The position numbers and the translations under genes are program-made. A stretch of 42,456 nt of DNA. It comes from a virus. The notes beneath the pieces are model-generated. The model was not told the DNA's origin. It did no database searches and saw only the letters and a list, made by a program, of their open reading frames with translations. Of the stretch, positions 9,499-26,569 are shown one piece after another. How positions within the stretch are numbered: position 1 is the stretch's first letter; each line of letters begins with the position of its first letter. The DNA is taken from positions 1 through 42,456 of the IMG/VR virus record IMGVR_UViG_3300046836_000302; one strand, given 5' to 3'.

Positions 9499-10235
9499 TT
9501 CGGCCCCCGCAGCTCGGCCTTCTTCTCGTCCTTCGCCAGTCGAAGCGCCTCGACATGCTCGGCCGGCGGCTGGAGGCGCTTCACGTCGTCGTTGACGTCC
9601 GCCCAGGCCGCCGTGAGGCTCCCCATGTCCGGCGCGCCCTGGATGGCAGCCAGGTGCTCCGCGGCCCACTTGCCCCAGTCCACGCTTGCGGCGAGCTGCT
9701 TGGTCAGGTCCGGCTGCGATGGAGGCTCCACGATCTCCCCGTCCGCGGTCACGGTTACCGGCTTCGCCGCGCGGACGTCGGCAACCTCGGTCTCGTCGAG
9801 CCAGCCGAGGCCGCAGATGGAGAGCGTCACCCGGCGCTTGGCCTTGGTCTCGGCCTTCATCAGGGCGTTGGACAGGCCTTCGCCCTTCAGGCCAGCGATG
9901 CTGACCGCGCCGATGCTCTCGTCGGTGCGCCCGCTCGGCATCGTGGCCCGAGCCGTCACGATGTAGAGGTCGTCGGTCCGCTCGCGCTTCGCAACGATGA
10001 CCGAGACCTCGTAGAGCTTTCGGAGCTGGTCCGCGGCGTCGCGCTTGGCGTAGAGCGTCAGTTTGCCGTTCAGCCGGACGTACATGAACGGCTGCGTCAG
10101 GGGGTTTAACCCCATGCTTTCGCATACTTTCGTGTAGTACCGCGCGCGCTCGCCCGGCTGCATGCTCTCGAGGTCGCCCATCGCGATGACCCGTTCCGCG
10201 ATCTGCCCGTCCACCCTGGCCATGCCGTTGTTCAT
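9495..10235 (-). CDS. single-strand DNA annealing protein (RecT/Rad52-like superfamily candidate)
   Basis: 246 aa. ATG 10235 overlaps the previous stop and has GGAGGGCGGAGC upstream, so it is chosen over the in-frame ATG 21 bases earlier. The region KVCESMGLNPLTQPFMYV, LNGKLTLYAKRDAADQL and ALMKAETKAKRRVTLSICG with LGWLDETE is typical of a phage recombinase family that often sits beside a Cas4/RecB-like nuclease. The C-terminal third is acidic and helical. It probably anneals single strands exposed by the neighbouring exonuclease, serving recombination-dependent replication or repair. The exact family (RecT, Erf, Sak) cannot be fixed by eye. Confidence 0.7.
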   Translation of the reverse strand: MNNGMARVDGQIAERVIAMGDLESMQPGERARYYTKVCESMGLNPLTQPFMYVRLNGKLTLYAKRDAADQLRKLYEVSVIVAKRERTDDLYIVTARATMPSGRTDESIGAVSIAGLKGEGLSNALMKAETKAKRRVTLSICGLGWLDETEVADVRAAKPVTVTADGEIVEPPSQPDLTKQLAASVDWGKWAAEHLAAIQGAPDMGSLTAAWADVNDDVKRLQPPAEHVEALRLAKDEKKAELRGPK

Positions 10236-10411
10236 TGCTCCGCCCTCCGTTGCCAAACGCCCAGCCAGTACTGCAACCGCCCGATCTCCTCGTTCGCCGC
10301 CGACAGCCGCTCCTGCAACTCAGCGATGCGCCTTTCGTGCTCGGCTCGCTCCTCGTCGCGGCACCGCCGAATCCACTCAGCGGCCGACACGCCTGCCACC
10401 TCGAGGATCAC
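10232..10411 (-). CDS. 59-aa coiled-coil protein
   Basis: GTG at 10411 overlaps the preceding stop (GTGA). Nearly all of it is a charged heptad helix (RRCRDEERAEHERRIAELQE, RLSAANEEIGRLQYWLG). It precedes the annealing protein by a 4-base overlap. It may be a small oligomeric accessory factor. No family is recognised. Confidence 0.55.
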   Translation of the reverse strand: MILEVAGVSAAEWIRRCRDEERAEHERRIAELQERLSAANEEIGRLQYWLGVWQRRAEQ

Positions 10412-10713
10412 GCGGCCCCCTTGCGCCCGTTGCGGCGTCGCGCGTCCTGGATCCGCGCCAGCGCGAACAGCGGCGCCATGCTCCTCGCCAGCGGCGCCGC
10501 GTGGACGCCAGCCCGGCCGGCCTGCTCTTCGATCTCGGCGGACATGGAGCGCGCGGCCGCGGTCCACTCGTCGTGGTGGCTCTCGCATAGACGCAGCAGC
10601 CTCGGGCCGTTGGCCGCATCCACCGTGTCAGCCCATGGCTCACCGCAGCCCCCGATGTCGCAGCACTCCGTCTCGGTCGACGGCAGGTCTTCGGTTGGAT
10701 TGTGAGGGATCAT
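10408..10713 (-). CDS. 101-aa protein with CCDIGGCG ... CESHH cluster
   Basis: The start is ATG 10713, overlapping the HNH-like gene's TGA; the longer open frame upstream is shadow of that gene. Residues 15-45 include ECCDIGGCG and RLCESHHDEW, a probable zinc finger with Cys and His ligands like those in HNH-type or treble-clef folds. The rest is helical and basic (LARIQDARRRNGRKGAA). A DNA-binding role is plausible but not shown. Confidence 0.6.
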   Translation of the reverse strand: MIPHNPTEDLPSTETECCDIGGCGEPWADTVDAANGPRLLRLCESHHDEWTAAARSMSAEIEEQAGRAGVHAAPLARSMAPLFALARIQDARRRNGRKGAA

Positions 10714-11336
10714 GACGTCACCAACGACCAGGTCTGGCCGGTCACGAGAGAGAGCATTGAGGAGATCGAGAGGCCGTAGCGGCGAGCCAGCGCCGCACAC
10801 TCTCCCCTCGCACCGGTGTACCCCGCGCGAATCTCCGCGACCTGGGACGAAGTCAGCCTGGCCTGGTTGCCGATCCTGCTGGCGGGCTGGGTAAGTGCGC
10901 GTTCGACCGGCCACCCGCGAGCCAACCTGGTCGTGATCGTCTGGCCCGGGACGCCAAGTCGCTTCGCCCAGTCGGTGAGGGGCATTGTTTCGCCACGAAG
11001 AGTGAGCCACCGAATGACGGAGCTATTGCGGGACTGCTCTTTCCTGGTCGCCCAGCGAACATTCCCTGGCTCGTAACCACCGTCGTTGTCGATGCGATCC
11101 AGAGAGTGGGCGTAAGAAGGCCGGCGTCCGGCGTCTCTGATGAACAGATCGAAGCTGCTGCGCCAGGCCGGGCACACGAAGATGCCCCGCCCGCCGTACC
11201 GGTGAAACGACCGGTGATTCGGGTTCTCGCACCGCTGGATCATGCTGACGTACGCCTTCCACTCCGGCTGCCTGGTGCGCGCATTTGACGCGCCGGGGAT
11301 TGCGACGAAGCCGCCTCTCTCTGCTCGGCCCCTCAT
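10710..11336 (-). CDS. HNH-like phage protein with YGGRGI motif and C-terminal HTH
   Basis: 208 aa from ATG 11336 (ATGA overlap, GGAGGG about six bases upstream; ATG 11342 is the alternative). The N-terminal part matches a widespread phage family: MIQRCENPNHRSFHRYGGRG, then VCPAWRSSFDLF, SLDRIDNDGGYEPGNVRWAT and EQSRN. It is often annotated as HNH or homing-type endonuclease. The Cys/His/Asn pattern supports a beta-beta-alpha-metal-like site. The second half has TDWAKRLGVPGQTITTRLARG, a small HTH, and a last HTH-like stretch (CAALARRYGLSISSM). It may be a selfish or regulatory nuclease. No interrupted host gene is seen. Confidence 0.65.
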   Translation of the reverse strand: MRGRAERGGFVAIPGASNARTRQPEWKAYVSMIQRCENPNHRSFHRYGGRGIFVCPAWRSSFDLFIRDAGRRPSYAHSLDRIDNDGGYEPGNVRWATRKEQSRNSSVIRWLTLRGETMPLTDWAKRLGVPGQTITTRLARGWPVERALTQPASRIGNQARLTSSQVAEIRAGYTGARGECAALARRYGLSISSMLSLVTGQTWSLVTS

Positions 11337-11626: not shown

Positions 11627-11805
11627 CGCCCACCACGCGCGCGGTAGGTGCCGAGGATCCGCGTCAGCTCGCGCTCAGCGTCGAGCAGCGTCGCCCAGGC
11701 GGCAGCGACGTCGACCAGCGGCTCGGCCGGCAGGAAGAGCGTGGGGCGCGGCGGAAGGATGGTTCGGGGCGGTCGCGTCGAGTCGTTCGTAGCGTCGTTC
11801 GGCAT
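11623..11805 (-). CDS. 60-aa first gene of the leftward operon
   Basis: MPNDATNDSTRPPRTILPPR, then a helix (DVAAAWATLLDAERELTRIL). ATG 11805 is chosen because it lies exactly 7 bases after the -10 of the strong promoter, with no room for a Shine-Dalgarno. Translation from a leaderless mRNA is predicted. The upstream in-frame ATG at 11817 would lie within the -10 element and cannot be in the transcript. Function unknown. Confidence 0.6.
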   Translation of the reverse strand: MPNDATNDSTRPPRTILPPRPTLFLPAEPLVDVAAAWATLLDAERELTRILGTYRARGGR

Positions 11806-11840
11806 GGAGACCATTATTGCCCAATGGCAAGAATTGTCAA
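11805..11840 (-). promoter_or_regulatory. leftward early promoter (PL-like), leaderless
   Basis: On the minus strand: -35 TTGACA (11835-11840, perfect), 16-bp spacer, -10 AATAAT (11813-11818), then 7 bases to ATG 11805. The predicted transcription start coincides with the start codon. It has the same architecture, and much the same sequence, as the rightward promoter at 12947-12974. Confidence 0.75.
11817..11830. promoter_or_regulatory. operator-like inverted repeat in PL
   Basis: On the minus strand it reads TTGCC-ATTG-GGCAA: perfect 5-bp arms with a 4-bp centre. It lies between -35 and -10 and overlaps the -10. The corresponding position of the rightward promoter holds TTGAC-GTTC-GGCAA. 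A second, imperfect site follows 17 bp away (11834-11847). It is the likely target of the repressor and the Cro-like protein. Confidence 0.6.
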
Positions 11841-11899: not shown

Positions 11900-12406
11900 A
11901 TGGGGCGTTTCGCCGGATCCGTGGACTTCGTGGCGCTCGCCGTCTTGGGAGCAATGGCCTGTGGCCCGGCAGATCGCGGGGTCAGGGATTGCGGCGGCCA
12001 ATTCGCGGTCGATCCGACCTTCTTGCCGGAGGACGTCGAGACGATCCGTCGCGGCATGGCGCGGTTTTCCGCCTGGTCGGGAGAGCATGTCGAGCTCGCC
12101 GGTCAGACGACGGCGCTCGATTGGTGCGCCATCGCAAAAACGAGTCTCCCGTCGGCGGAAAAGGGGGCCTACTTCTCCGATACTGGCGTGATGTGGCTCG
12201 ATCTCGCCAACTGGGGCAGCCTCGAGGAGGGCCGGCAGCGAACGGTGATGCACGAATTAGGGCACTCCTTCGGCCTGGCGCACCTCGCCGCCGGGAAGGC
12301 GGGCATCATGGGCGCCCAGCGCGAAGGGAGTGAGGTGCGCTATGACTTCACCGCAGACGACGCGGACGATTGTCGCGCCGCCGGGCACTGCATGCACATG
12401 CCCTGA
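11900..12406 (+). CDS. secreted metzincin-type zinc metalloprotease, possible conversion gene
   Basis: 168 aa from ATG 11900. Residues 8-20 are hydrophobic and end at Cys21 (VALAVLGAMAC), which resembles a lipoprotein signal with a weak lipobox. HELGHSFGLAH (118-128) is the HExxHxxGxxH zinc site of metzincins such as matrixins, and GIMG (Met137) fits the Met-turn. Cysteines at 31, 76, 158 and 164 may form disulfides. The length suits a minimal catalytic domain. It lies between the early promoters, transcribed towards the repressor, where cargo (moron) genes are typical. Its substrate is unknown; surface modification of the lysogen is an inference. Confidence 0.75.
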   Translation: MGRFAGSVDFVALAVLGAMACGPADRGVRDCGGQFAVDPTFLPEDVETIRRGMARFSAWSGEHVELAGQTTALDWCAIAKTSLPSAEKGAYFSDTGVMWLDLANWGSLEEGRQRTVMHELGHSFGLAHLAAGKAGIMGAQREGSEVRYDFTADDADDCRAAGHCMHMP

Positions 12407-12410
12407 GGGG

Positions 12411-12887
12411 TTACCCCGTGCGCGGTCTGGGGCCACTTCGGCGCGGGCGCACACGCAGCACGCGCTCGAGGTAGACGCGCCACACGGAGCGTGGCCGCTG
12501 CTGGCCCGGGAGAGTAGCGGCCTCCCGCCGCGCCTCCGAGATGATGGCATCGATCGAGCCGAGGTCGACGTCGTCCGGCCAATCATAGTCGTCAAGCACG
12601 CGTTCTAGGGCATCTATGCCCTTTGCGGGCGCGGCGGCGGCGATCGGGGGCTCCGGAAGCGGCATGTTGGCGGGCACCATATCGCCGCGCCCATAGGCCA
12701 GCCAATCGGCATTTACTTCCAGGGCGCTTCGGTACTTGTCGATGCTGTCCGGCCGAGGCGCTTCGCCGCGCTCCAGGTGCCGGCTCACGGCCGACTCGGA
12801 GAGCCCAGCGAGCTTCGCCGTCGCCTTCTGGTCGAGGTGCTTCCTCTCCATCGCCAGAGAGAGGCGTTCTCCAAATGTGACGGGCAC
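12411..12887 (-). CDS. CI-like repressor, XRE family
   Basis: 158 aa from GTG 12887, just ahead of the HTH. The domain is FGERLSLAMERKHLDQKATA, LAGLSESAVSRHLERGEAPR and KYRSALEVNADWLAYGRGDM (residues 4-70). The C-terminal half is Pro/Ala-rich then acidic and basic, without the Ser-Lys S24 peptidase found in LexA-type repressors. Induction by RecA-stimulated self-cleavage is therefore not expected. An in-frame ATG at 12983 would add 32 residues across the operators and overlap the Cro-like start codon; I consider it less likely. No Shine-Dalgarno is seen at either start. It converges with the metzincin gene. Confidence 0.7.
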   Translation of the reverse strand: MPVTFGERLSLAMERKHLDQKATAKLAGLSESAVSRHLERGEAPRPDSIDKYRSALEVNADWLAYGRGDMVPANMPLPEPPIAAAAPAKGIDALERVLDDYDWPDDVDLGSIDAIISEARREAATLPGQQRPRSVWRVYLERVLRVRPRRSGPRPRTG

Positions 12888-12939
12888 ATGGACAGCTTGC
12901 CATGCGTCAACCGAGGCGGACAAGGGCGGAGATTCGGCC

Positions 12940-12953
12940 TTGTCCGTTGACAA
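12940..12953. promoter_or_regulatory. operator-like inverted repeat 1 in PR
   Basis: TTGTC-CGTT-GACAA: perfect 5-bp arms around a 4-bp centre, overlapping the -35 of the rightward early promoter. It is 17 bp (start to start) from the next site. The shape matches the operator seen in PL. Confidence 0.6.
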
Positions 12954-12981
12954 TTCTTGACGTTCGGCAATACTAGGGGCC
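12947..12981 (+). promoter_or_regulatory. rightward early promoter (PR-like), leaderless
   Basis: -35 TTGACA (12947-12952), 16-bp spacer, -10 AATACT (12969-12974), then 7 bases to ATG 12982. The spacing equals that of the leftward promoter base for base, and TTGACAATTCTTG is identical in both. The short AGGGG lies only two bases from ATG, too close for ribosome binding, so leaderless initiation is predicted. Confidence 0.75.
12957..12970. promoter_or_regulatory. operator-like inverted repeat 2 in PR
   Basis: TTGAC-GTTC-GGCAA, with 4 of 5 arm pairs matching, lies between -35 and -10 and touches the -10. It is equivalent in position to the perfect TTGCC/GGCAA site in the leftward promoter. Confidence 0.5.
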
Positions 12982-13266
12982 ATGGGAAAACGAGACCAAC
13001 GGGCTGCCGGGCGGCGCCTTCGGGCCGCGATGGAGGCCCAGGGAATGACGCAGGCCGAGCTGAGCAAGCAGGTCCGCGCGTCGCCGGGCGCGGTGAGCCG
13101 CTGGATCGCGGGCGAGCGCCGGCCTTCGCTCGGGAAGGCGATCCTGCTCGAGCAGGTACTGGGGCTGGCGCACACGATGTGGACGCCCGAGGGGGCGACT
13201 CCGTCTCCGGGGGACTCGTCGCTCGATGTGGAAGACACGTCGCTGCACGGTCGAGGTGCAGCGTGA
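12982..13266 (+). CDS. Cro-like XRE regulator, first gene of the right early operon
   Basis: 94 aa. HTH at residues 8-60: GRRLRAAMEAQGMTQAELSK, QVRASPGAVSRWIAGERRPS, then GKAILLEQVLGL. The tail (35 residues) is acidic and Ser-rich. ATG 12982 lies exactly at the predicted transcription start. It faces the repressor across the operator region, the arrangement of cro and cI in lambdoid phages. Its stop overlaps the next GTG. Confidence 0.8.
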   Translation: MGKRDQRAAGRRLRAAMEAQGMTQAELSKQVRASPGAVSRWIAGERRPSLGKAILLEQVLGLAHTMWTPEGATPSPGDSSLDVEDTSLHGRGAA

Positions 13267-13403
13267 GCGCGAGCATGACCCTTGTCGATGCTGAACGCGT
13301 GCAATTTGCAGATGTTGCAGTCTACACGTCCGACCAGTGTGTCACATTGAGCCAACCACTGAACGACCTGCGCGCTAGTGCAGCGGAACGGCACTGCTCA
13401 TGA
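13263..13403 (+). CDS. 46-aa protein, unknown
   Basis: GTG 13263 overlaps the Cro stop and TGA overlaps ATG 13400. It begins VSASMTLVDAERVQFADVAV and ends AAERHCS. Base composition here is less G+C rich than the flanks. Support is from the two overlaps only; a CII-like activator would occupy this position but no HTH is evident. Confidence 0.5.
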   Translation: MSASMTLVDAERVQFADVAVYTSDQCVTLSQPLNDLRASAAERHCS

Positions 13404-13705
13404 CGCCATGGGAAGAGAGCTGGGGCTACGCCACGCGCACGCAAACCGGCAATTGCGCTGAGCTGCACCTCGGCGACGGCCAGCAGATCTGCGTGCAAAT
13501 CGGCATCGACGACGAAGCCGACGCGTACGCCCAGCTCGCCGCTTGCGCCCCCGAGATGGCGCGGCTGCTGCTGGACCTGGAGTGGGCCCACCAGGACCCC
13601 TCATGGGGCCCCGCGTGCCCGGCGTGCGACGCCCTAGAGCGCGCAGGGCATGGGAGGGACTGTCGCCTCGAGCGCGTCCTCCGCAAAGCCGGGGTGAGGC
13701 CGTGA
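13400..13705 (+). CDS. 101-aa protein, unknown
   Basis: ATG 13400 (ATGA overlap). A beta-rich first half (NCAELHLGDGQQICVQIGI) is followed by a helix (AYAQLAACAPEMARLLLDLE) and a Cys cluster (CPACDALERAGHGRDC). This resembles small phage proteins of the nin or early regions that have no assigned function. Confidence 0.6.
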   Translation: MTPWEESWGYATRTQTGNCAELHLGDGQQICVQIGIDDEADAYAQLAACAPEMARLLLDLEWAHQDPSWGPACPACDALERAGHGRDCRLERVLRKAGVRP

Positions 13706-13791
13706 CCATTCTCGCCGCATGCGCGGGTTCCTTCGCGATCGGCTGGGTCGTCGGCCGACTCCTTCGCCCGTGGATCGGGGCGGAGCGGTGA
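13702..13791 (+). CDS. 29-aa single-span membrane peptide
   Basis: GTG 13702 and its stop each overlap neighbours by the GTGA rule. The sequence TILAACAGSFAIGWVVGRLL is one hydrophobic segment with a basic end (RPWIGAER). It is too short to classify, but the coupling on both sides and the clear transmembrane character suggest a real micropeptide. Confidence 0.45.
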   Translation: MTILAACAGSFAIGWVVGRLLRPWIGAER

Positions 13792-14159
13792 GCCGGCTGC
13801 CGCCAGAGGACATGCTGCTCTCCGTCAACGACGTCCGCGAGCTGCTCGGGATCTCTCGGAGCTTCGCCTACGAGGTCATGGCTCGCGTCGGCCTCACCAG
13901 GTTGGCGCCGAAGTGTGTGCGCATCACCAAGAGCGACCTGGACAAGTACCTGAAGGAGCTGAAAGAAGAATGCGACTCGAGCTCCGCAAGCGCGGCAAGT
14001 ACTGGCAGGCCTACGGGGGAGCCTTCCGGAAGTCCACCGGGCACACGAGCGAGCGCAAGGCGCGGCGCCTCGCCGACGCCTGGGAAAAGGAACTCGACGA
14101 CCCCGATCATTTCCGTGCGAACGAAGCCACCGTCGACAGCGCCGCGGAACGGTGGATGA
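13788..14159 (+). CDS. excisionase / AlpA-like HTH protein
   Basis: 123 aa from GTG 13788. Residues 9-60 are a winged-helix excisionase (HTH_17/MerR-like) domain: LLSVNDVRELLGISRSFAYE, VMARVG, then VRITKSDLDKYLKEL. It sits directly ahead of the integrase, as xis genes often do. The C-terminal 60 residues are low-complexity Ser/Pro/Thr/Arg and overlap the integrase gene by 190 bases in another frame, so this tail is probably an overprinted, disordered extension. It should direct excision and may also act as a regulator. Confidence 0.75.
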   Translation: MSRLPPEDMLLSVNDVRELLGISRSFAYEVMARVGLTRLAPKCVRITKSDLDKYLKELKEECDSSSASAASTGRPTGEPSGSPPGTRASARRGASPTPGKRNSTTPIISVRTKPPSTAPRNGG

Positions 14160-14947
14160 AGGAGCTGAAGGCGAGCCACAAGCCGCCGACGGTGCGCTTC
14201 TACGACGTGAAGATCCGCCACGTCCGTCGCCTTCTGGGCGCCGTGCGACTCGCCAAGCTGACCCATGACAAGGTGCTGGCCTACACCGAGAAGCGCCTCT
14301 CCGAGGGCGGCCACCGGCACACCATCCACCGCGAACTGACGGCGCTTCGGCTGACACTGAAGTCTGCCGCGCGCGCGCGCGAGTTCTCTCGCGACCCGAA
14401 AAGCGTCATCCCGCGCTTCCAGCCTGGCTACGAGCCCTCGAAGCACTTCGTCGAGCCCGAGGCCATCTGGGCGGCCATCGCCCACCTGCCCCAGCACCGC
14501 GGCGCGGCCGTGGCCTGGTGCATTGCGACCGCCTGCGACTTCTCCGCCATCTGGACGGCGGAGCGCGGCGACGTGCGGCCGGATCGCGTGCTCGTGCGCG
14601 GATCGAAGACGTCGACCCGAACGCGCGAGGTCCCGCGCGTCAAGGTCATGGAGCCGTTCCTTCGGCACGCCCTGGCCTACGCCGAGCCCACTCCCGCCCG
14701 GCTGCTCTTCCAGATGTGGCACTCGATGCCGCGCGACCTCCGCCGGGCCTGCCGGCGAGCCGGGGTTCCGGAGTTCACCGCGCGGACGCTTCGCCACTCG
14801 GCGGCCACCTGGCTGGTGCGAGCGGGTGTGCCGTACGAGGTCGCGGCCAAGTTCCTCGGGCACGGCAGCACGATCATGCTCCAGCGCGTCTACGGCAACA
14901 TCGCTCCGCCAGACGCGGGGCGACTCATCGACGAGAGGCTCCCGTGA
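13970..14947 (+). CDS. int: tyrosine recombinase (phage integrase)
   Basis: 325 aa from ATG 13970 with purine-rich AAAGAAGA before it. It has an arm-binding N-terminus (ELRKRGKYWQAYGGAF), a SAM-like core-binding domain (about 52-150) and a catalytic domain. Catalytic residues seen: Lys213 (RGSKTS), Arg275 (TLRHSAATWL), His298 (FLGHGS) and Tyr308 (RVYGN). The first catalytic Arg expected in TG-x-R is Asp190 (ATACDFSAIW), and the His of HxxR is Arg272. These variants may define a divergent subfamily or weaken the enzyme. attP lies about 110 bases downstream. Confidence 0.85.
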   Translation: MRLELRKRGKYWQAYGGAFRKSTGHTSERKARRLADAWEKELDDPDHFRANEATVDSAAERWMKELKASHKPPTVRFYDVKIRHVRRLLGAVRLAKLTHDKVLAYTEKRLSEGGHRHTIHRELTALRLTLKSAARAREFSRDPKSVIPRFQPGYEPSKHFVEPEAIWAAIAHLPQHRGAAVAWCIATACDFSAIWTAERGDVRPDRVLVRGSKTSTRTREVPRVKVMEPFLRHALAYAEPTPARLLFQMWHSMPRDLRRACRRAGVPEFTARTLRHSAATWLVRAGVPYEVAAKFLGHGSTIMLQRVYGNIAPPDAGRLIDERLP

Positions 14948-14949
14948 CT

Positions 14950-14964
14950 GTGTCCGGATTGTGC
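14950..14964 (+). promoter_or_regulatory. arm-type repeat, integrase side of attP
   Basis: GTGTCCGGATTGTGC matches 15158-15172 (GTGTCCGAATTGTGC) in 14 of 15 bases, in the same orientation, on the other side of the attP core. A related site in the opposite orientation lies at 14981-14998 (TCCCGATTGTCC on the minus strand). Such flanking repeats are typical of integrase arm-binding sites. Confidence 0.5.
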
Positions 14965-14980
14965 TCGCCCACAGCAGCCA

Positions 14981-14998
14981 ACCCGGACAATCGGGACC
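14981..14998 (-). promoter_or_regulatory. inverted arm-type site
   Basis: On the minus strand GGTCCCGATTGTCCGGGT shares the GTCC-x-RATTGT core with the two direct repeats around attP. It is itself partly palindromic (CCCG ... CGGG). It could be an integrase arm site or an excisionase site. Confidence 0.35.
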
Positions 14999-15049
14999 AT
15001 GCGGACCCACAAAACCCCGTGCAGTACGAAGAAACCGAGGTGAATTGAG

Positions 15050-15250
15050 ATGGCTTCGAGGATTAAAAGTCCGCTGCTCTGCCAACTGAGCTATCGGCCC
15101 AAGATTGCTAAACTATTCGGCAAGCTACGTGCCGCGCGCCCGGCAGTCAAGGGCCGTGTGTCCGAATTGTGCGCGGTCCCGCCCGCTACCGACTCCGACG
15201 ACGATGTCATGGCCGCACTCGGCGGCGTCGTCTCCGGGAGGGCGCCGTGA
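15050..15250 (+). CDS. 66-aa frame reading across attP
   Basis: ATG 15050 has GAGG about a dozen bases upstream, and TGA overlaps the GTG of the next gene, so the frame is joined to the operon. Its first 18 residues (MASRIKSPLLCQLSYRPK) are the antisense of the tRNA-Lys fragment. They are therefore fixed by attP rather than selected as protein. A later GTG at 15157 could start a 31-residue version. In a lysogen the N-terminus would be replaced by host sequence. A real product is uncertain. Confidence 0.4.
   Translation: MASRIKSPLLCQLSYRPKIAKLFGKLRAARPAVKGRVSELCAVPPATDSDDDVMAALGGVVSGRAP
15060..15100 (-). other. attP: attP core: 5' half of a tRNA-Lys(UUU) gene
   Basis: On the minus strand these 41 bases read as tRNA positions 1 to the 3' side of the anticodon stem: acceptor strand GGGCCGA, TA, D arm GCTC-AGTTGGCA-GAGC, A, anticodon stem GCGGA, loop CTTTTAA, then TCC. 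Similarity to a tRNA stops there, so no 3' half exists in the phage. The bases flanking the loop (GAGGA and TCCGC on the plus strand) form an imperfect inverted repeat, as expected for integrase core sites around a 7-bp crossover. A host tRNA-Lys is the likely attB. Confidence 0.75.
15122..15150 (-). promoter_or_regulatory. candidate promoter facing the tRNA-Lys fragment
   Basis: On the minus strand TTGACT (15145-15150), a 17-bp spacer and TAGCTT (15122-15127) point at the tRNA 5' end at 15100. The -35 is good and the -10 weak (3 of 6). Integration would remove the host promoter from the rebuilt tRNA, so a phage-borne promoter here would make sense. Confidence 0.3.
15158..15172 (+). promoter_or_regulatory. 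arm-type repeat, replication side of attP
   Basis: GTGTCCGAATTGTGC is the partner of 14950-14964. The two lie about 100 and 60 bases from the core on either side. Confidence 0.5.
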
Positions 15251-15879
15251 GCGGCTGCCGCTTCTGCAATCGCCCACTGGGTACCGCATCCATCCGGACC
15301 GAACTCGGTTACTTCTGCGGCGCTTCGTGCGCCGCCATGTCTGCCGAGAGCGCCGAGTCGATTAAGCGCGCCATCCTCCTCGAGCAGGGCATCTCGGAGA
15401 TCCCACCGGACTCGGCGACGAGGCCGCAGGGCCAGATCCAGGCCGAGATCGACAGCGTCACTAGGCGACTGCAGGAGGCTCACGAGGAGATGGCGTCGCA
15501 TGCCGTCAAGCCGGTGAGCGGCTGCATCAAGTGCAGCAAGACGCTCTGGGCGTGGGCTGCTCCTGCGGCCGAAGGTGGCTACCACTGCATGGCGTGCTGC
15601 GCCCCAGGCTTTCGCGGGGAGCCGATGCCGTCGTCCGCGGCCCCCGATATCGACTTCCTTCGCCAGCCGTCCGCGGACGCCTACGAGCAGGTTCGCGCCG
15701 TCGAGCCGTGCCCCCACTGCCGCCCCATCGCTGACCAACTCGCCTTCGACCAGGACCGGGCCAACCGCCTCTCCGACGAGTGCGGCCGGCTGGCGACCGA
15801 GAACCGCGAGCTGCTGGCCGAGAACGCCACCCTCCGGCGCAAGCTGGAGCGGGCCGAACGGAAGCGAGGTGCGCAATGA
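15247..15879 (+). CDS. multi-zinc-ribbon plus coiled-coil protein
   Basis: 210 aa from GTG 15247. Cysteine clusters: CRFC with CGASC (residues 4-31, treble-clef-like), CIKCSKT with CMACC (about 92-118), and CPHC (about 157). The last 45 residues are a coiled coil (RLATENRELLAENATLRRKL). The first gene beyond attP, it shares the ribbon-then-zipper design of four other phage genes. A DNA- or RNA-polymerase-binding role is possible, but no family is recognised. Confidence 0.65.
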   Translation: MSGCRFCNRPLGTASIRTELGYFCGASCAAMSAESAESIKRAILLEQGISEIPPDSATRPQGQIQAEIDSVTRRLQEAHEEMASHAVKPVSGCIKCSKTLWAWAAPAAEGGYHCMACCAPGFRGEPMPSSAAPDIDFLRQPSADAYEQVRAVEPCPHCRPIADQLAFDQDRANRLSDECGRLATENRELLAENATLRRKLERAERKRGAQ

Positions 15880-16055
15880 GCCGGCTCATCCGAGTCGAAG
15901 CCCGCGCCCTGCCCGATGGCCGCTGGAGGCTCGTCCGCGAGCACGACGGCGAGGGCGGCGGCGACTCCTGGACCTGCGATGACCTGCTCGACGTGTGGGA
16001 CACGGTCGACGCCGCGTATCGGCCCGACGGGACGGCGCGGGAGTCGCTGCCGTGA
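15876..16055 (+). CDS. 59-aa protein, unknown
   Basis: ATG 15876 (ATGA overlap). It reads SRLIRVEARALPDGRWRLVR, then a helix (CDDLLDVWDTVDAAY): a small beta-hairpin plus helix. Stop overlaps the next GTG. No family is recognised. Confidence 0.55.
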   Translation: MSRLIRVEARALPDGRWRLVREHDGEGGGDSWTCDDLLDVWDTVDAAYRPDGTARESLP

Positions 16056-16255
16056 TCGGGCGCCCTGTTGGCATGGAAGACTGGGCCTGGGCGGCGATCC
16101 GCAAGCTGCGGGCCGACGTGCGAGACCGCGTGCTCGAGCGCAGCGCGATCGTGTGGTTCGGAGGCGGAGTCGCGAAGACGCCTGCCGAGGCGGACGCGAT
16201 CGCGCTGGCGCAGGAGGCCGGCGTCTACCGCGAACTGCCGGGGGTAGGGACATGA
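16052..16255 (+). CDS. 67-aa protein, unknown
   Basis: GTG 16052 overlaps the previous stop and TGA overlaps ATG 16252. It contains MEDWAWAAIRKLRADVRDRV, a helix, and TPAEADAIALAQEAG. No family is recognised. Confidence 0.55.
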   Translation: MIGRPVGMEDWAWAAIRKLRADVRDRVLERSAIVWFGGGVAKTPAEADAIALAQEAGVYRELPGVGT

Positions 16256-16536
16256 GCCGCTTCCGCCCGAAGCAGTTCGCTCCGCCGCGGTCCCGCGCGG
16301 GGCGCGATCAGGCCGTTCGCGAGGCGCTGGGGCTCGGCCCCGTAACGACGACGGAGATGCTCAAGGTGCTCTACCCGGCCGACAATGACCGGGCACCGTG
16401 GGCGCTCCTGGCCTACCGGCGCGGGTGGCTGACCTTCACCGAGTACGCCCTGATCCCGCCCACCGAGATGGGGCCGCTGGAGCGGATGTTCGCGGCCGGC
16501 CCCTTCACGAAGTTCCTTCGGAAGAGGTCCTGGTGA
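16252..16536 (+). CDS. 94-aa possible winged-helix protein
   Basis: The basic N-terminus (SRFRPKQFAPPRSRAGRDQ) precedes REALGLGPVTTTEMLKVLYP and LLAYRRGWLTFTEYALIPP, which look like three helices and a wing. The gene immediately precedes the replication initiator (TGATG overlap), so it may assist initiation or act as a regulator. The fold assignment is a guess. Confidence 0.5.
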   Translation: MSRFRPKQFAPPRSRAGRDQAVREALGLGPVTTTEMLKVLYPADNDRAPWALLAYRRGWLTFTEYALIPPTEMGPLERMFAAGPFTKFLRKRSW

Positions 16537-17414
16537 TGGCTGACTTCGTCAAGGTGCGGACCCACATCACCAACCACGAACGGCTTCTGTCCGCCGGGTC
16601 GGCCGCTCGCGACTTGTACTTCTGGGGGATGCTCTACGCCGGTCAGCATGAGACCGACGGGGGGCTCCCCATGGTCGCCGTCCTGTCGACACCCTGGGGT
16701 CGCGGGGGCAAGGCCAACGTCATCCCGGCTGCCAAGCTGGTCGAGGTCGGCCTATGGGAGCGGACCGACTCGGGCTACCGGATCTGCCGCTGGGCCGAGC
16801 AGGGGAACATGACCCGCGCGGCCCTCGAGGAGAAGCGCCGCTCCGAAAGAGAGCGGAAATCCAAGCAACGGAACTCGTCCTTCCCGATCTGTCCCACTGG
16901 GACACCCACTGGGACAACTGATGGGACATCCACTGGGACATTGGGTGGGACTCCAGCGTCCGCTGGTTCCTCTACCTCTTACTCTCTCTCTGGATCTGGA
17001 TCTGATCAGAAGATCCCAGAAGAGATCCCATCCGCGCGCGAGGCTCCGACCGGCACCCGGCCCAAGCCCGCTCCCGACGCGCCTCCCGACTGGTGGGAGG
17101 GCGTGCTCGAGACGCTGGCCATGAACACCGAGCCCATCGCCGAGCCCGCCCTGGCGTGGCTCCGATACCGCGGCCACCGGCAGACCAAGGGCATGGCGCC
17201 CACCCGCGAGGACGCCCTGTACTGGCTCGGCGGCGTGGTCATCCCGGAGCAGAAGGCCGCCAGGCAGCGCGAGGCCGAACACCGCAAGCGCATGGAGCCG
17301 CGCGGAGGCGTCGCCCCGCCCAACCCGGCCGATCCGGCGAAGTACACCCCCGAGGAGCTACAGCGCCTGGCTGAGCTCGTCCCGATGAAGCGTCGCAACC
17401 GGGAGGTCGCATGA
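16536..17414 (+). CDS. replication initiator candidate
   Basis: 292 aa. The N-terminal 110 residues look like the winged-helix domain of phage replisome organisers: MADFVKVRTHITNHERLLSA, ARDLYFWGMLYAG, then ELTK-like VIPAAKLVEVGLWERTDSGY. A low-complexity linker (about 120-165) is encoded by tandem 12-bp repeats. The C-terminal part (WWEGVLETLAMNTEPIAEPA, ALYWLGGVVIPEQKAARQRE) is helical and could bind helicase or loader. Repeats inside the initiator gene recall lambda O and its origin. No phage helicase or polymerase is present, so host replisome recruitment is expected. Confidence 0.6.
   Translation: MADFVKVRTHITNHERLLSAGSAARDLYFWGMLYAGQHETDGGLPMVAVLSTPWGRGGKANVIPAAKLVEVGLWERTDSGYRICRWAEQGNMTRAALEEKRRSERERKSKQRNSSFPICPTGTPTGTTDGTSTGTLGGTPASAGSSTSYSLSGSGSDQKIPEEIPSAREAPTGTRPKPAPDAPPDWWEGVLETLAMNTEPIAEPALAWLRYRGHRQTKGMAPTREDALYWLGGVVIPEQKAARQREAEHRKRMEPRGGVAPPNPADPAKYTPEELQRLAELVPMKRRNREVA
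16890..16951. repeat. five 12-bp iterons, putative replication origin
   Basis: The core TGGGACA begins at 16898, 16910, 16922 and 16934, with a degenerate copy (TGGGACT) at 16946: exactly 12 bp apart. The first is extended into a perfect inverted repeat, TGTCCCA-C-TGGGACA (16890-16904). The array lies in frame in the initiator gene and encodes a Gly-Thr-rich linker (TGTP, TGTT, DGTS, TGTL). Iterons inside an initiator gene are the arrangement in lambda-type origins. Confidence 0.65.
16972..17030. other. AT-richer stretch with five GATC sites, possible unwinding region
   Basis: Right after the iterons, the sequence becomes pyrimidine-rich (CTACCTCTTACTCTCTCTCT) and lower in G+C than the genome. 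GATC then occurs five times in 35 bp (16993, 16999, 17004, 17012, 17024). An unwinding element is expected next to iterons. The clustered GATC resembles Dam-regulated origins, and the phage encodes a Dam-like enzyme. Confidence 0.45.
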
Positions 17415-17746
17415 AGCCGCTCGGCATCGACCTCGGGAAGCTGGCCGCAGCCGCGTCGCCGCTCTCCGGCGCCCCCGACTGCCCCGGCGGCAACGTCAGG
17501 GTCACCCGCAACGACCTCGCCCAGCTCAAGGCTGGCGGCGAGGTGTTCCAGACCAACCCGCAGGTCATCCCCGCGGACGGCTACGGCTCCGCCCGTGTCG
17601 CCTGCCGCAACCAGGTCGAGCAGCTGGCTGACCCCATCTCCGGCAGCCCGACGTACTATGGGCTCTGCCGGTCGTGCTCGCAGCTCGAGGCCGACAACCG
17701 GGCGTTGCTCCGCGAGCGGCAGAAGATCCGGGAGGGCGGCCGATGA
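17411..17746 (+). CDS. zinc-binding plus short coiled-coil protein
   Basis: 111 aa, ATGA overlap on both sides. Residues 20-90 contain CPGGNVRVTRNDLAQLKAGG, ACRN and a C-terminal CRSCSQLEADNRALLRERQ: a four-cysteine site followed by a leucine-rich helix. The same ribbon-then-helix layout is seen elsewhere in this phage. Function unknown. Confidence 0.6.
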   Translation: MKPLGIDLGKLAAAASPLSGAPDCPGGNVRVTRNDLAQLKAGGEVFQTNPQVIPADGYGSARVACRNQVEQLADPISGSPTYYGLCRSCSQLEADNRALLRERQKIREGGR

Positions 17747-18108
17747 TCTGCGTCACGATCCCCATCCGGACGGTCTCCGAGGCTAACCGGCGCGACCACT
17801 GGGCCGTCCGGGCGAAGCGCACGAAGCAGGCTCGGCAGACCGTCGGGCTCGTCATGGCCGGCTCCCTCTCGTTCCACGGACGGCCGGACTTCCCGCTCGT
17901 CGTGACCCTCACCCGCATCGCCCCGCGCGACCTCGACTCGGACAATCTCGCGATCAGCCAAAAGGGTGTCCGCGATGGCGTGGCCGATGCGCTCGGCATC
18001 GACGACCGCGACCCGCTCGTGGCCTGGCGCTATGACCAGCGCCGGGGAAAGCGCGGGCAATACGCCGTGGAGATCACCATCGTCGGCGCATCCGAGGTGG
18101 CGGCATGA
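17743..18108 (+). CDS. RusA-like Holliday junction resolvase
   Basis: 121 aa. The RusA-type acidic signature is present: PRDLDSDNLAISQKGVRDGV (Asp63, Asp65, Asp67, Asn68, Asp78), ADALGIDDRDPLVAW, and a closing strand GKRGQYAVEITIV. The N-terminal strand ICVTIPI and basic helix (RRDHWAVRAKRTKQA) also fit. Such enzymes cut four-way junctions and resolve branched phage DNA before packaging. With the annealing protein and nuclease it completes a recombination set. ATG 17743 overlaps the prior stop. Confidence 0.75.
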   Translation: MICVTIPIRTVSEANRRDHWAVRAKRTKQARQTVGLVMAGSLSFHGRPDFPLVVTLTRIAPRDLDSDNLAISQKGVRDGVADALGIDDRDPLVAWRYDQRRGKRGQYAVEITIVGASEVAA

Positions 18109-18458
18109 AGCATTGCGGCGTGTTCTTCACGCGCCTTGCAGATGGCGCCTTCGTCGAGTGCGCCCTGCCCAATGGCCACAACTGCGCGCACTCATGGAAG
18201 GATCCGGCCTTGACGAAGCGACCGAAGAGCATCACATCTCTACCAGCGGCTCGGAACCATAAGGGAAAAGCACGGGCCGCCCGAAAGGAGGCGCCCATGT
18301 CGCCCACGACCGAATCGCTGAAGCTGCCGCCGACTCTCACGCTCCGCCCGCGGGAGGCGAATCCGCGCTCGACTGACGAGGCGATCGTCGTCCGGGACCG
18401 AGACGGCCGCACCGTGGCACGCATTGACGTCCTGCGGGTCGACTTGCTGCCGAATTGA
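18105..18458 (+). CDS. 117-aa protein, possibly two genes in one frame
   Basis: ATG 18105 overlaps the RusA stop. The first 35 residues hold CGVFF ... VECALPNGHNCAHSW, a compact Cys/His cluster seen in small phage zinc proteins. In the same frame, ATG 18297 has a near-perfect Shine-Dalgarno (AAAGGAGG) and would give a 53-residue product (MSPTTESLKLPPTLTLRPRE, then TVARIDVLRVDLLPN). The right early operon ends here. Confidence 0.55.
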   Translation: MKHCGVFFTRLADGAFVECALPNGHNCAHSWKDPALTKRPKSITSLPAARNHKGKARAARKEAPMSPTTESLKLPPTLTLRPREANPRSTDEAIVVRDRDGRTVARIDVLRVDLLPN

Positions 18459-18625
18459 CGTCGGAGGCCTGGGCGCCGAAACGCGGTCCTAGGTGCCTTT
18501 GCGGCCCAGCAATCGCTACGCAATAAGGTCAGAGTAATATTGGGCGTGACAAACAACGTCATCCCTGATACTTGTTCCATTGCGACCTAGGTCGTCCAAC
18601 CAGCGAGAGTGCCGATGCCTGAGTC
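18459..18625. promoter_or_regulatory. 167-bp intergenic control region, late promoter candidate
   Basis: This is the longest gap in the right half and the only space before the structural genes. It is locally lower in G+C. It holds a perfect palindrome CGACCTAGGTCG (18583-18594). A weak sigma-70-like pair, GTGACA (18546-18551) and ATACTT (18568-18573) with 16-bp spacer, and a TAATAT at 18535-18540 are also present. The early operon must end or be antiterminated here and the late operon begin. I see no strong terminator hairpin. Confidence 0.4.
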
Positions 18626-19231
18626 GTGACGGACTGGACCATCCGCGACGCGCTACCCGAGGACGAGGCGTGCCTCGTGTCGATGTGGCTCAAGTCGTAT
18701 GCGCACAGCCACGATATGCAGAAGCTCGGCTTTCCGAGCGCCTGCGTCGACTCGCACCCGGATGAGATTCGGTACTGGAAGGTTTTCCAGCCCATCGTAA
18801 CGGCGCTGGTTCGGTCTGGCTCGGTCAAGGTGGCCTGCGATCCGTCGCGGCCGACCTACGAGAAGGGCCCGGCGATCATTCTGGCCTACACCTGCACCTC
18901 TCCCGGGCGCGTGCATTGGGTCGGCATCAAGCGGAATCTGCTGCCCATCCAGGGCGGCGAGTTCGCGCTCGACCTCGTGGAGGCGATGGCTCCGGGGATG
19001 ATGGCCGACGAGGCGCTGCGGTCCACGTTCGATCTGATGGACCTGCGCAAGCTGACCTTGGCGCGGCGCTGGGAGCGCGATCGCAGGTGGCTCGAGGCGC
19101 TGCAGCTTGCTTCGAAGCAGATCCTTGCGGGCGAGCGGATCTTCGCCCAGGTCTTCGGGCACATGGCGGATATCCACCGCCCCGAATGGATGCCGGCGAC
19201 GATGCGGGCGAAGTTGAGGGGGGCGGCATGA
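18626..19231 (+). CDS. GNAT-like protein upstream of terminase
   Basis: 201 aa from GTG 18626. The opening TDWTIRDALPEDEACLVSMW resembles the first strand and helix of GNAT acetyltransferases. HWVGIKRNLLPIQGGEFALD would correspond to the central strand before the acetyl-CoA loop, though the classic R/Q-x-x-G-x-G/A is not clear. The C-terminal half is helical (LRKLTLARRWERDRRWLEAL). GNAT-like genes beside terminase occur in some podoviruses; their role is not known. First gene of the late operon. Confidence 0.45.
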   Translation: MTDWTIRDALPEDEACLVSMWLKSYAHSHDMQKLGFPSACVDSHPDEIRYWKVFQPIVTALVRSGSVKVACDPSRPTYEKGPAIILAYTCTSPGRVHWVGIKRNLLPIQGGEFALDLVEAMAPGMMADEALRSTFDLMDLRKLTLARRWERDRRWLEALQLASKQILAGERIFAQVFGHMADIHRPEWMPATMRAKLRGAA

Positions 19232-19383
19232 AGGATGGCCAGCACATCGGGCATACGGCGCTGTCATACGGCTGGCTCGTCGGGCTCATCTTCGACGGCG
19301 ACCGCGTGCCCTTCGGCCAGAGCTGGGAATGGTACGAGCGCATGAAGCGCGAATGGGAAGACCGCGAGGAGAAGTGCCGATGA
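19228..19383 (+). CDS. 51-aa protein, unknown
   Basis: ATG 19228 and the stop overlap both neighbours. It reads KDGQHIGHTALSYGWLVGLI, then QSWEWYERMKREWEDREEK: a short hydrophobic strand then a charged helix. No family is recognised. Confidence 0.5.
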   Translation: MKDGQHIGHTALSYGWLVGLIFDGDRVPFGQSWEWYERMKREWEDREEKCR

Positions 19384-19661
19384 AGATCCGCGCTATCACC
19401 TTCGACGATGTTATCGTCGTGCATGGGCACGTGCCCGTCTCCGGCGGCCCGTCGACGAGCCGCGAGCAGGCGTTCCACGAGGACGACGGCTGGGACATCC
19501 GCGAGACGCTGCCGGGCACCTTCACGCTTTGCCACGAGACGATGAGCGAGCCGATCACCATTGGCGGCTACGGATACAGCTATGTGCGATCGGCGAGCCA
19601 GGAGGCGATCGCAGAGCCGGATGCCGTGGTGCACATCGGCAGGAAGGGCAAGCGGCACTGA
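19380..19661 (+). CDS. 93-aa protein, unknown
   Basis: ATG 19380 (ATGA overlap). Beta-rich: KIRAITFDDVIVVHGHVPVS, then PGTFTLCHETMSEPITIGG. It ends in TGATG with the small terminase gene. No family is recognised. Confidence 0.5.
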   Translation: MKIRAITFDDVIVVHGHVPVSGGPSTSREQAFHEDDGWDIRETLPGTFTLCHETMSEPITIGGYGYSYVRSASQEAIAEPDAVVHIGRKGKRH

Positions 19662-20125
19662 TGCCCGCGGGCCGACCACCGACGATCGAAGATCCAGCGG
19701 TCCAGGAGATCATCCTCGAGGCGATCCGCGCCGGCAACTATCGCCAGACAGCGGTCGCTGCCGCCGGGATGCACCGCAACAGCCTGTACCATTGGGAGAA
19801 GCGCGCCGAGGAGGGCGTCGAGCCCTACGCGAGCTTCATGGCTCGCATGTCCATCGAGGAGGCGAAGGCCGAGATTGCGCTGCTGGCCGAGATCCGAAGC
19901 GCGCAGGCCGCCGTCGTCGGCGTATCGGGCGCAGACGTCTGGACCGCGAAGGCATGGATCCTCGAGCGCCGCTTTCCGCAGCGCTTCTGCGCGCGCGTCA
20001 AGCAGACGGTCGCCGAGCAAGTCGACATGATGACGTCGCAGCTTCGGAGGGATCCGGAGTTGCACCGGAAGGTCTTGGATGTCCTTGATCAAGAGCCTGC
20101 GCCGGCAGGCTCCAGCAGTCACTGA
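19661..20125 (+). CDS. terS: terminase small subunit
   Basis: 154 aa. N-terminal homeodomain-like HTH (EIILEAIRAGNYRQTAVAAA, then MHRNSLYHWEKRAEEG) followed by helices (ARMSIEEAKAEIALLAEIRS) and an oligomerisation-like region. This matches small terminases that bind pac or cos DNA. It directly precedes, and overlaps by 47 bases, the large subunit. The gene start overlaps the prior stop (TGATG). Confidence 0.8.
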   Translation: MPAGRPPTIEDPAVQEIILEAIRAGNYRQTAVAAAGMHRNSLYHWEKRAEEGVEPYASFMARMSIEEAKAEIALLAEIRSAQAAVVGVSGADVWTAKAWILERRFPQRFCARVKQTVAEQVDMMTSQLRRDPELHRKVLDVLDQEPAPAGSSSH

Positions 20126-21671
20126 CGCGGATGTCCCGCCTACCTTCCTTGGCTTCTGTGCCTGGGCTGGCGTGCGGCTTACACCCGGACAAGCCGAGCT
20201 ATGTCGCGTGGCCTATGATGTGGCTGAGCCCGTGGATCGAGGCCTCGCCGCGGCGCTCTTCGGCGATCTGCCGATGGGGCGCGGTCGCCCCCCCGTTGTC
20301 GCCGCTGTCTGCGGAGCCCGAGCCGGCAAGAGCTATGTGCTTGTGGCTCTACGATTGGTGCATGGGATGCTCATGCGCGACGTGTCGGCACTACCACCGG
20401 GACAACGCGCGGTCGCGATGATCATCGCCCCACGCGACGACATGCGCATGGAGGTGTTCCGCTATGCGCTCGGCGCCGTCATGAATAGCCCGCTGCGGCA
20501 TATGCTCCACGGCTCGCCCCGCGTCGACGAGTTCACGCTGCGGCGCCCTGATGGCGCGCTCGTGAGCTTCGAGACCGGCGTAGCGACGATGGGCGGCACG
20601 GCCGCTCGCGGGCGATGGTTCACCGACTTCGCGCTCGACGAGTGCGCCTTCTTCCGCGATTCGACCTACAAGGTGAACGACGAGGAGATCTTCCGTTCCG
20701 CCACGGCACGCGTGCTGCCCGGCGGCCAGGTCATCGTCGCGTCCACGCCCTGGGCTCAGACGGGGCTGCTGTACAACCTCTGGAAGGATAAGCCGGAGGG
20801 CACGCTCGTCGTGCATGCGCCCACGCTGGTGCTTCACGACTCCGAGCTGACGCGCGACATCGTGGCCCGCGAGGAGGCGCGCGATCCCGACAACGCGGCC
20901 CGCGAGTATGGCGCCAAGTTCATGACGTCGGGTACCACGGTGTTCTTCGAGCCGGCGAGCATCGATGAGGCGCTGACCGATGAGCCGTTCGAGCTCGAGC
21001 CCGGCGACATCCCGGGCGCGGGAGCTGACTTCGGCTTCCGCTCAGATAGTTCGGCGCTGATCCTCGTGGCCCTGCGAGGCGAGACCATCCACGTCTTCGA
21101 CGGCGCCGAGGAGCGGCCGACCGAAGATAAGCCGCTGAAGCCGAGCCAAACCGTGGCCAGCTTCGCGGCCAAGGTGAAGGCATCGAGCGCGCTCTATGTC
21201 ATGGCCGACGGCCACGAGCGCTCCAGCATCGACGAGCATCTCACGGAGCACGGCCTCGTCTTTGCTGCGGCGCCGATGACGACGAGCGATAGCTACGGCC
21301 GCGCGCGGATGCTGCTCCGGCAGGGGCGCATCAAGATCCACGGCAAGCAGCTAGACTTCATGCAGCGCTTCGTCCAGCAGCTCCGCGAAGTGCATGGGCG
21401 GCCGACGAGCGGCGGACAGATCAGCATCTCGCACCCGCGGTGGGCGAAGGGCGGTCACGGCGACATCGCGGCGGCCTTCGTTTTGGCGGTATGGCAAGTC
21501 AGCGGCGATGCTATTCCGGCGCCGAGGCCCGAGGAGGGCACGGAGCAATGGTTGGCGAAGGCCAAGGAGCGGCGGCGCATGGCGCTCGTTCGCGATCAGG
21601 AACGGCCGGCGTGGATGCCGAAGGGGCAGATTATGGACAGGGGCGCGCGCGCATTATGGAGGAACCGATGA
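20079..21671 (+). CDS. terL: terminase large subunit
   Basis: 530 aa. ATPase: Walker A CGARAGKS (78-85), Walker B FALDEC (184-189), coupling motif ASTPW (221-225). Nuclease (RNase H fold): Asp317 in GADFGFRSDSSAL, Asp377 in VMADGH, and a third acidic site in GGHGDIAAAF. It translocates DNA into the procapsid through the portal and cuts the concatemer. ATG 20079 lies inside the small-subunit gene with GGAAGG upstream. Full length for the family. Confidence 0.93.
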   Translation: MSLIKSLRRQAPAVTDADVPPTFLGFCAWAGVRLTPGQAELCRVAYDVAEPVDRGLAAALFGDLPMGRGRPPVVAAVCGARAGKSYVLVALRLVHGMLMRDVSALPPGQRAVAMIIAPRDDMRMEVFRYALGAVMNSPLRHMLHGSPRVDEFTLRRPDGALVSFETGVATMGGTAARGRWFTDFALDECAFFRDSTYKVNDEEIFRSATARVLPGGQVIVASTPWAQTGLLYNLWKDKPEGTLVVHAPTLVLHDSELTRDIVAREEARDPDNAAREYGAKFMTSGTTVFFEPASIDEALTDEPFELEPGDIPGAGADFGFRSDSSALILVALRGETIHVFDGAEERPTEDKPLKPSQTVASFAAKVKASSALYVMADGHERSSIDEHLTEHGLVFAAAPMTTSDSYGRARMLLRQGRIKIHGKQLDFMQRFVQQLREVHGRPTSGGQISISHPRWAKGGHGDIAAAFVLAVWQVSGDAIPAPRPEEGTEQWLAKAKERRRMALVRDQERPAWMPKGQIMDRGARALWRNR

Positions 21672-21751
21672 ACGACACGGAGTCCTGCAATCTGCGACAA
21701 GCGGAACGCATCCGGGAACTGGAGTTGGAATTGGATCTGCACCGGCGATGA
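21668..21751 (+). CDS. 27-aa helical peptide
   Basis: ATG 21668 overlaps the terminase stop and TGA overlaps ATG 21748. It reads MNDTESCNLRQAERIRELEL then ELDLHRR, a single charged helix. Tiny coupled genes at this place are seen in other phages; translation is plausible but unproven. Confidence 0.4.
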   Translation: MNDTESCNLRQAERIRELELELDLHRR

Positions 21752-21963
21752 GCAGATCTGCATTCGCGCAGCTCCTCGAGGAGGGCCAGACGCTGCTACA
21801 CCAGCGCAATCGCCGCGCGGTCATGCTGCACTTCACCTGGGATGGCACCGATCGCGCCGATTCTTGGTGCGCCTGGCATGACGCCCTAGGTGGCGCCATC
21901 TACAAGGGCAACAGCGGCGAGCAGGCGCTTCGGCGCCTCGTGGAGGCATTGCATGGCGACTGA
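21748..21963 (+). CDS. 71-aa protein, unknown
   Basis: ATG 21748 (ATGA overlap). It has a helix (AFAQLLEEGQTLLHQ) and a strand (AVMLHFTWDGTDRADSWCAW). It lies between terminase and portal. No family is recognised. Confidence 0.5.
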   Translation: MSRSAFAQLLEEGQTLLHQRNRRAVMLHFTWDGTDRADSWCAWHDALGGAIYKGNSGEQALRRLVEALHGD

Positions 21964-22003
21964 CGCTCAGCTAGATTCCGTCGAGTGGAGACGGACGAGA
22001 TGA
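21953..22003 (+). CDS. 16-codon frame bridging two small genes
   Basis: MATDAQLDSVEWRRTR; it starts inside the end of the previous gene and its stop overlaps ATG 22000. It may only keep ribosomes coupled. Weak support. Confidence 0.25.
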   Translation: MATDAQLDSVEWRRTR

Positions 22004-22221
22004 GCCTCGACGACTTCCGAGCGCGATGCGCAGCGATGCGTGAGGCCGGCGCCGTGAAGGCATGGGGCATCGAGCTTGCCCCGCTGCCCATCGACAGCAT
22101 TACCGAAGAGCCAACCCAGCGATTGACCCCCTCCGAAGTGGAGCGACGTGCGCGCGAAGAGCGCCGCCGCATCGCCACCGCGTCGAGCGGGGGACCATTG
22201 CTGAAGCTTGGCGAGCGCTGA
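22000..22221 (+). CDS. 73-aa charged protein before the portal
   Basis: ATG 22000 follows GGAGACGG; an upstream in-frame GTG (21985) is the alternative. It contains SLDDFRARCAAMREAGAVKA, a helix, and a basic stretch (EVERRAREERRRI). Its end overlaps the portal gene start by 14 bases. Function unknown. Confidence 0.55.
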   Translation: MSLDDFRARCAAMREAGAVKAWGIELAPLPIDSITEEPTQRLTPSEVERRAREERRRIATASSGGPLLKLGER

Positions 22222-24250: not shown

Positions 24251-24277
24251 CCGTCCAGCGAGAAGACCAGCCATGAA

Positions 24278-25246: not shown

Positions 25247-25287
25247 CGACGTGATGTGAGCCGAGCGCGAGCCCACGGGAGGCTCGC

Positions 25288-26559: not shown

Positions 26560-26569
26560 GGAGGACATC

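Follow-up and report, generated by a model that had tools for sequence, protein, structure and literature searches.

What happens to phage replication when the attachment site lies within the same operon as the integrase and the replication genes? The question arises from IMG/VR record IMGVR_UViG_3300046836_000302, a viral genome of 42,456 bases that was analysed over its whole length and is here called the window. In its early operon, attP is placed between int and the genes for replication. We consider it probable, at roughly 0.6, that the placement of attP within the operon transcribed from PR constitutes a gene-order lock, by which excision has to come before replication. In this phage as well as in at least five relatives, integration probably separates the replication genes from the promoter that serves them, and only excision of the prophage would join the two again. 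Whether excision takes place before or after replication sets how much host DNA a prophage amplifies and carries off, and for this phage the gene map could reveal which of the two comes first.

Gene order and reading frames in the early operon

The first 193 bases of the window (1-193) are repeated at its end (42264-42456) with 192 of the 193 bases equal, which indicates that the genome is circular or terminally redundant, and thus free rather than an integrated copy. The single mismatch, at position 66 of the repeat, points to a variant site present in the assembled circle. The combination of a P22-like portal (Pfam E 6e-10), a CI-like repressor, a Cro-like gene, xis and a tyrosine integrase identifies the window as a temperate podovirus. 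The repressor is encoded on the minus strand (12411-12890) and contains an HTH_3 domain (Pfam E 3e-5), its start codon not being fixed. The interval from PL to the repressor (11900-12406) may encode a secreted lipoprotein metallopeptidase, a candidate lysogenic conversion gene, with a match to Peptidase M66 that is weak (E 8e-4) and under the curated cut-off.

The early operon is preceded by a PR-like promoter, TTGACA-16-AATACT, located just upstream of cro (12947-12974, plus strand), and a PL-like promoter, TTGACA-16-AATAAT, is placed as its mirror image at 11813-11840 on the minus strand. The two lie in an inverted pair of 38-nt segments (11803-11840 and 12947-12984) that are 79% complementary, and from this symmetry and the match to the consensus we infer that they represent PL and PR. 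They are the only two promoter-like sites in the 14.5 kb between 8000 and 22500, as judged by a sigma-70 consensus that may not be that of the host. No terminator-like site was found on the plus strand from PR to 18458.

Downstream of PR, the plus strand contains the first gene of the operon, which encodes a Cro-like HTH protein (12982-13266; Pfam HTH_3 E 2.7e-12), the genes at 13400 and 13702, xis for an excisionase-like HTH protein (13788-14159; Pfam HTH_17, PHROG excisionase E 1.3e-5), int for a type A tyrosine integrase (13970-14947; Pfam Phage_integrase E 1.6e-9, PHROG integrase E 8e-37) and attP (14949-15175). The first gene downstream of attP encodes a cysteine-rich, Zn-ribbon-like protein of no confident family (15247-15879), and it is followed on the same strand by three small genes, the replication initiator (16536-17414; PHROG replication initiation E 3e-14), the gene at 17411, a RusA-like Holliday junction resolvase (17743-18108; PHROG RusA E 8.6e-10) and a last gene with no function assigned (18105-18458). 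Within the initiator gene, iterons of the sequence TGGGACA recur about every 12 bp on the plus strand (16898-16952) and form a candidate origin. The xis reading frame and int share 190 nt that are read in different frames, and the overlaps in the relatives L002 and L004 are similar, at about 200 nt.

An earlier, sequence-only reading of this DNA had described the genes from the Cro-like gene at 12982 to 18458 as running in a single direction, and all of them are indeed located on the plus strand. It had also taken the attP interval as the one exception to a tiled operon, which does not hold, as two small open reading frames fill the interval. A frame of 34 codons (14944-15048) overlaps int by GTGA and is separated by 1 nt from a frame of 66 codons that crosses the attP core (15050-15250), which in turn overlaps the gene at 15247 by GTGA; all three junctions are on the plus strand. 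The open frames from 13400 to 18458 are thereby joined by overlaps or a 1-nt gap throughout, attP interval included, and the true gap in the operon is the 133 nt between cro and 13400.

The attP interval was bridged by reading frames in all six phages tested (the window, L002, L004, L008, L009 and L012). When the interval was shuffled with the tRNA core kept, the P value for a bridged interval was 0.19 for the window, 0.06 for L002, 0.48 for L004, 0.56 for L008, 0.46 for L009 and 0.11 for L012. The product is about 3e-4 over five phages, with L008 left out, for sequences that are partly related and thus not fully independent. Tiling was rejected as strong proof of selection, since the shuffles make it only moderately unlikely by chance. 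The frame of the arm-site DNA relative to the tRNA part differs between L004 and L009 and yet is open in both, which hints that selection acts on translation through attP rather than on one protein.

A different explanation for these frames is that they encode a small protein of 66-90 codons that changes form upon integration, a switch like the repressor of mycobacteriophage BPs. The frame is open in all six phages, and a C-terminus of the form DSDDDVMAxLxxVxSG is read in frame in the window, L004 and L008, where the shared DSDDDVMA segment may be a real short coding segment. However, the tRNA part is read in different frames in L009 and L004, and the forms in the window and L002 have no family match. 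The pairwise dN/dS values of 0.4-0.7 cover 24 codons only and are not decisive. We regard a protein switch as highly improbable. The possibility that the frame encodes an ordinary conserved protein was discarded on the same lack of a family match and the same difference in frame between L004 and L009.

The attachment site and its probable tRNA-Lys target

The attP core (15060-15101, minus strand) matches a tRNA-Lys(UUU) gene over its 5' half and extends as far as the 3' side of its anticodon stem. The minus strand from 15100 to 15060 reads GGGCCGATAGCTCAGTTGGCAGAGCAGCGGACTTTTAATCC and is recognised by the Rfam tRNA model (27.3 bits, E 0.0033). The core is flanked by arm-type sites, of which the direct repeats at 14949-14967 and 15157-15175 share the sequence GTGTCCGRATTGTG at 14950 and 15158, with a spacing of 208 bp, and an inverted site is located at 14979-14989. 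The arm repeat in L002 has another sequence but exactly the same spacing of 208 bp, and paired arm-type sites are also found at attP in L004, L008 and L012. By its architecture, the attP of the window is of the two-armed, λ-type kind. The core of L002 is the same as that of the window except for one tRNA position, and the identity between the two phages extends past the first base of the tRNA by a few nucleotides, and then falls.

When the 5' half from the window is joined to the 3' half from L004, ARAGORN predicts a complete tRNA-Lys(ttt) whose acceptor stem is perfectly paired, a result that fits a single host gene with exchange in the anticodon loop. The Rfam match, the arm repeats and the rebuilt tRNA confirm the attP that had been called from the sequence alone. 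The 5' half is found in the window and L002, and the 3' half in L004, L008, L009, L010, L011 and L012. Elements that restore a tRNA gene usually carry the 3' half; among the Islander islands, this was the case for 3,760 of 3,919, and a displaced 5' fragment was present in the other 159 (PMC4383910). The window and L002 differ from the majority in this respect and belong to the rare class. A phage that carries the 5' half would need to supply a promoter for the restored tRNA, and a weak candidate for such a phage-borne tRNA-Lys promoter, TTGACT-17-TAGCTT (shuffle P 0.05), is located at 15122-15150 on the minus strand. It points at the tRNA half and away from the replication genes. The T-loop of the 3' half is normal in L009 and L010, and is altered (ATCGTGC versus TTCRANY) in L004 (about 3212-3242) and L008 (about 5874-5904), so the tRNA restored by these two phages may be impaired. 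A search for the exact 41-bp core, the tRNA-Lys 5' half, in 84,980 genomes gave no match, and an alignment search with int in the same 84,980 genomes likewise returned nothing, so that neither a lysogen nor an attB, attL or attR was found.

The integrase of the window contains both the core-binding and the catalytic domains of a tyrosine recombinase (Pfam SAM_1 and Phage_integrase). A sequence search in PDB gave no match, and a structure model was used instead; the best match of the AF2 model was lambda Int (probability 1.00). The column of catalytic Arg I contains Asp in the integrases of the window (13970-14947) and L002 (9984-10973), with the motifs TACD and TASD, respectively, while the alignment shows that the integrases of five relatives keep the arginine (TGAR). 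The Lys, the second Arg, the His and the Tyr are retained in the window and L002, which thus have an incomplete catalytic set. With a dN/dS of about 0.37, the type A int appears to be under purifying selection. The loss of the usual Arg I means that the activity of the window integrase is not certain, and an active recombinase without this residue would be surprising.

Conservation of the arrangement among relatives

Seven further tRNA-Lys attachment sites were identified in IMG/VR, and each lies either downstream of a co-directional int or within its end. The core sequence occurs once per record, so none of the records represents an integrated copy with both ends. Known replication genes then follow on the same strand in five of the seven (L002, L004, L008, L009 and L011). 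More specifically, the order int, attP, initiator is kept in the window, L002, L004, L008 and L009, and attP stands immediately after int and before the next genes in these five phages and in L012.

L002, found by an integrase search in IMG/VR, encodes an integrase that is 72% identical to that of the window, and has other structural genes; its order is int, attP, initiator, a DnaC-like loader and RusA. L004, found by a terminase search, shares 99.95% identity with the window across 13.4 kb (18229-31668). In L004, a different sequence extends from xis through the right arm of attP; it has no match to window positions 13791-15178, with 83% identity directly to the left of the swapped block and a short match of 81% from 15178. 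The L004 integrase is 35% identical to that of the window and its attP carries the tRNA-Lys 3' half. Thus, xis, int and attP have been exchanged in the same slot, with the gene order kept. L008 has the same integrase as L004 and other structural genes, and the second integrase type also includes L009, L010, L011 and L012. The cassettes of L004 and L008 are nearly identical and contain different perfect hairpins at the same spot downstream of attP, GTGTAGATCcacGATCTACAC in L004 (about 3362-3384) and GAGGCGAAAAgctccccccggTTTTCGCCTC in L008 (about 6025-6057).

The remaining phages vary in detail. In L010, several small genes stand between int and attP. The circular L011 has attP at 11066, inside the 3' end of int (10001-11224), a location of attP that is also known for Mx8 and SSV (PMC4383910). 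The replication genes of L011 are reached across an exact 120-bp overlap of the contig ends, and the genes past attP encode a DnaA-C-like protein, a helicase, a weak match to VRR-NUC and VapE. No replication gene was identified downstream of attP in L010 and L012. In the annotated neighbourhoods of three distant integrase matches, Aurca01, CRP-810 and Yong-L1-251, no named replication genes were located directly after int.

In temperate phages, int usually adjoins attP, and the gene order may accordingly be a neutral by-product, with int and attP travelling as one cassette that by chance stands in the PR operon, so that the order has been inherited rather than selected. The swap between L004 and the window, in which xis, int and attP moved as one block, is consistent with such a history, as is the drift in details seen in L010 and L011. 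However, attP is located upstream of co-directional replication genes in six phages that represent two integrase types and different replication modules, and the physical consequence of integration would be the same even if the origin was neutral. We therefore find a purely neutral origin rather improbable. As a broader and tentative reading, which we hold as possible but doubtful, these phages may form a group that infects uncultured bacteria and enforces excision before replication by gene order alone, through a xis-int-attP cassette placed in the PR operon, with translation through attP and a slot that is kept despite the exchange of integrases and tRNA halves.

Excision and replication

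In the free circle, the proposed lock would leave PR to transcribe cro, xis, int, attP, the initiator and RusA as one unit, with reading frames that stay open across attP. The early operon would be split once the phage integrates at the anticodon loop of the host tRNA-Lys(UUU) gene. The left end of the prophage would then consist of the host tRNA 3' half, the core and the replication genes (15101 onwards), followed by the late genes, and the right end of PR, cro, xis, int, the core and the host tRNA 5' half with its promoter. This separation of PR, cro, xis and int from the replication genes, as already envisaged in the sequence-only reading, is what integrase chemistry predicts for the order of genes in the window. 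Any leaky transcription from PR in the lysogen would yield no more than Cro, Xis and Int, and with the replication genes physically away from PR, replication would not start inside the chromosome. Upon induction, PR would first give only Cro, Xis and Int, and excision would then rejoin the circle and reconnect the initiator to PR, allowing replication. We infer that one transcript spans the operon, that the replication genes are silent in the prophage and that the gene order is under selection.

By geometry, the host tRNA-Lys promoter would face the 3' end of int in the antisense direction with both integrase types, and never the replication genes. A type A integrase would leave the restored tRNA beside the replication genes, with upstream DNA supplied by the phage, and an integrase of the second type (type B) would leave it beside int, with the promoter of the host. 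The position of attP recognised in the sequence-only reading stands, while that reading had overlooked the tRNA-Lys identity, the tiled frames and the antisense orientation of the host tRNA promoter relative to int. A point against the lock is that transcripts begun in host DNA could extend into the replication genes from the end of the prophage.

The replication genes may also have a promoter of their own downstream of attP, or be transcribed from host DNA, in which case the split would be without regulatory effect and replication could occur in situ as in P22. A separate promoter at 15100-15247 had been raised as a question in the earlier reading, and a scan with the sigma-70 consensus finds none that faces the replication genes. 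From the core to the next gene in the window, the best plus-strand match to this consensus is 6 of 12 positions, a value below nearly all shuffles (P 0.99); L002, L004, L008 and L009 likewise have no prominent match downstream of attP. The interval is densely filled by attP arm sites and reading frames. The scan covers sigma-70 consensus sites only, so that a non-consensus promoter is conceivable; L012 has a weak plus-strand match there (8.5, shuffle P 0.07), and the different hairpins of L004 and L008 could be regulatory. We consider transcription independent of PR to be unlikely.

P22 is, like the window phage, a temperate phage with a P22-type portal, and it has control of the CI/Cro type. 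It replicates and packages in situ before excision, and staphylococcal phages likewise replicate before excising (PMC8575938). This precedent counts in favour of independent transcription, but the gene order of the window predicts the reverse of the order in P22, which makes the prediction of the lock sharp.

No phage in which integration cuts off the replication genes from PR was found in the open-access literature. The nearest precedent for the proposed lock is Tn916: once this element has circularised, its transfer genes are read through the joined ends (PMC7288454, which cites Celli and Trieu-Cuot 1998). As described there for the Tn916 family, the genes at one end are transcribed by read-through of the attachment site only once the element has been excised, with int and xis at the other end, and the promoter and its target genes flank the attachment site on the same strand, as they do in the window. 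Tn916 differs in that it is a conjugative element with transfer genes rather than replication genes at this position, and in that the promoter is tet-regulated rather than a putative PR of the CI/Cro type. The lock would extend the principle of expression only across rejoined ends to phage replication. The integrative element ICEKp1 (PMC13023037) also has expression that depends on joined ends, and a host tRNA promoter beside int when integrated. However, this promoter drives int in ICEKp1, whereas that of the host tRNA-Lys would be antisense to the 3' end of the window int.

In mycobacteriophage BPs, attP is likewise located within the control circuit and integration changes expression (PMC4557955). 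The attP of BPs lies within the repressor gene, and the stable repressor arises by integration, whereas in the window attP (14949-15175) is downstream of int and separates off the replication genes, leaving the repressor gene (12411-12890, minus strand) untouched. The window shows one way for an attP inside an operon to join a control circuit.

The podoviruses P-SSP7 and S-TIP37 have an integrase gene followed by an attP in a tRNA gene (PMC8776855), as in the window, and these T7-like cyanophages provide a partial precedent for its anatomy. They differ from the window in that the target is tRNA-Leu, the genomes are T7-like, no stable lysogens were found and there is no CI/Cro circuit (PMC8776855). 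The unusual features of the window are the CI/Cro operon and the conserved way in which it is split. In Roseobacter phage CRP-118, for which a tRNA half as attP was looked for and none detected, an RNA polymerase gene is located 270 bp after int on the same strand.
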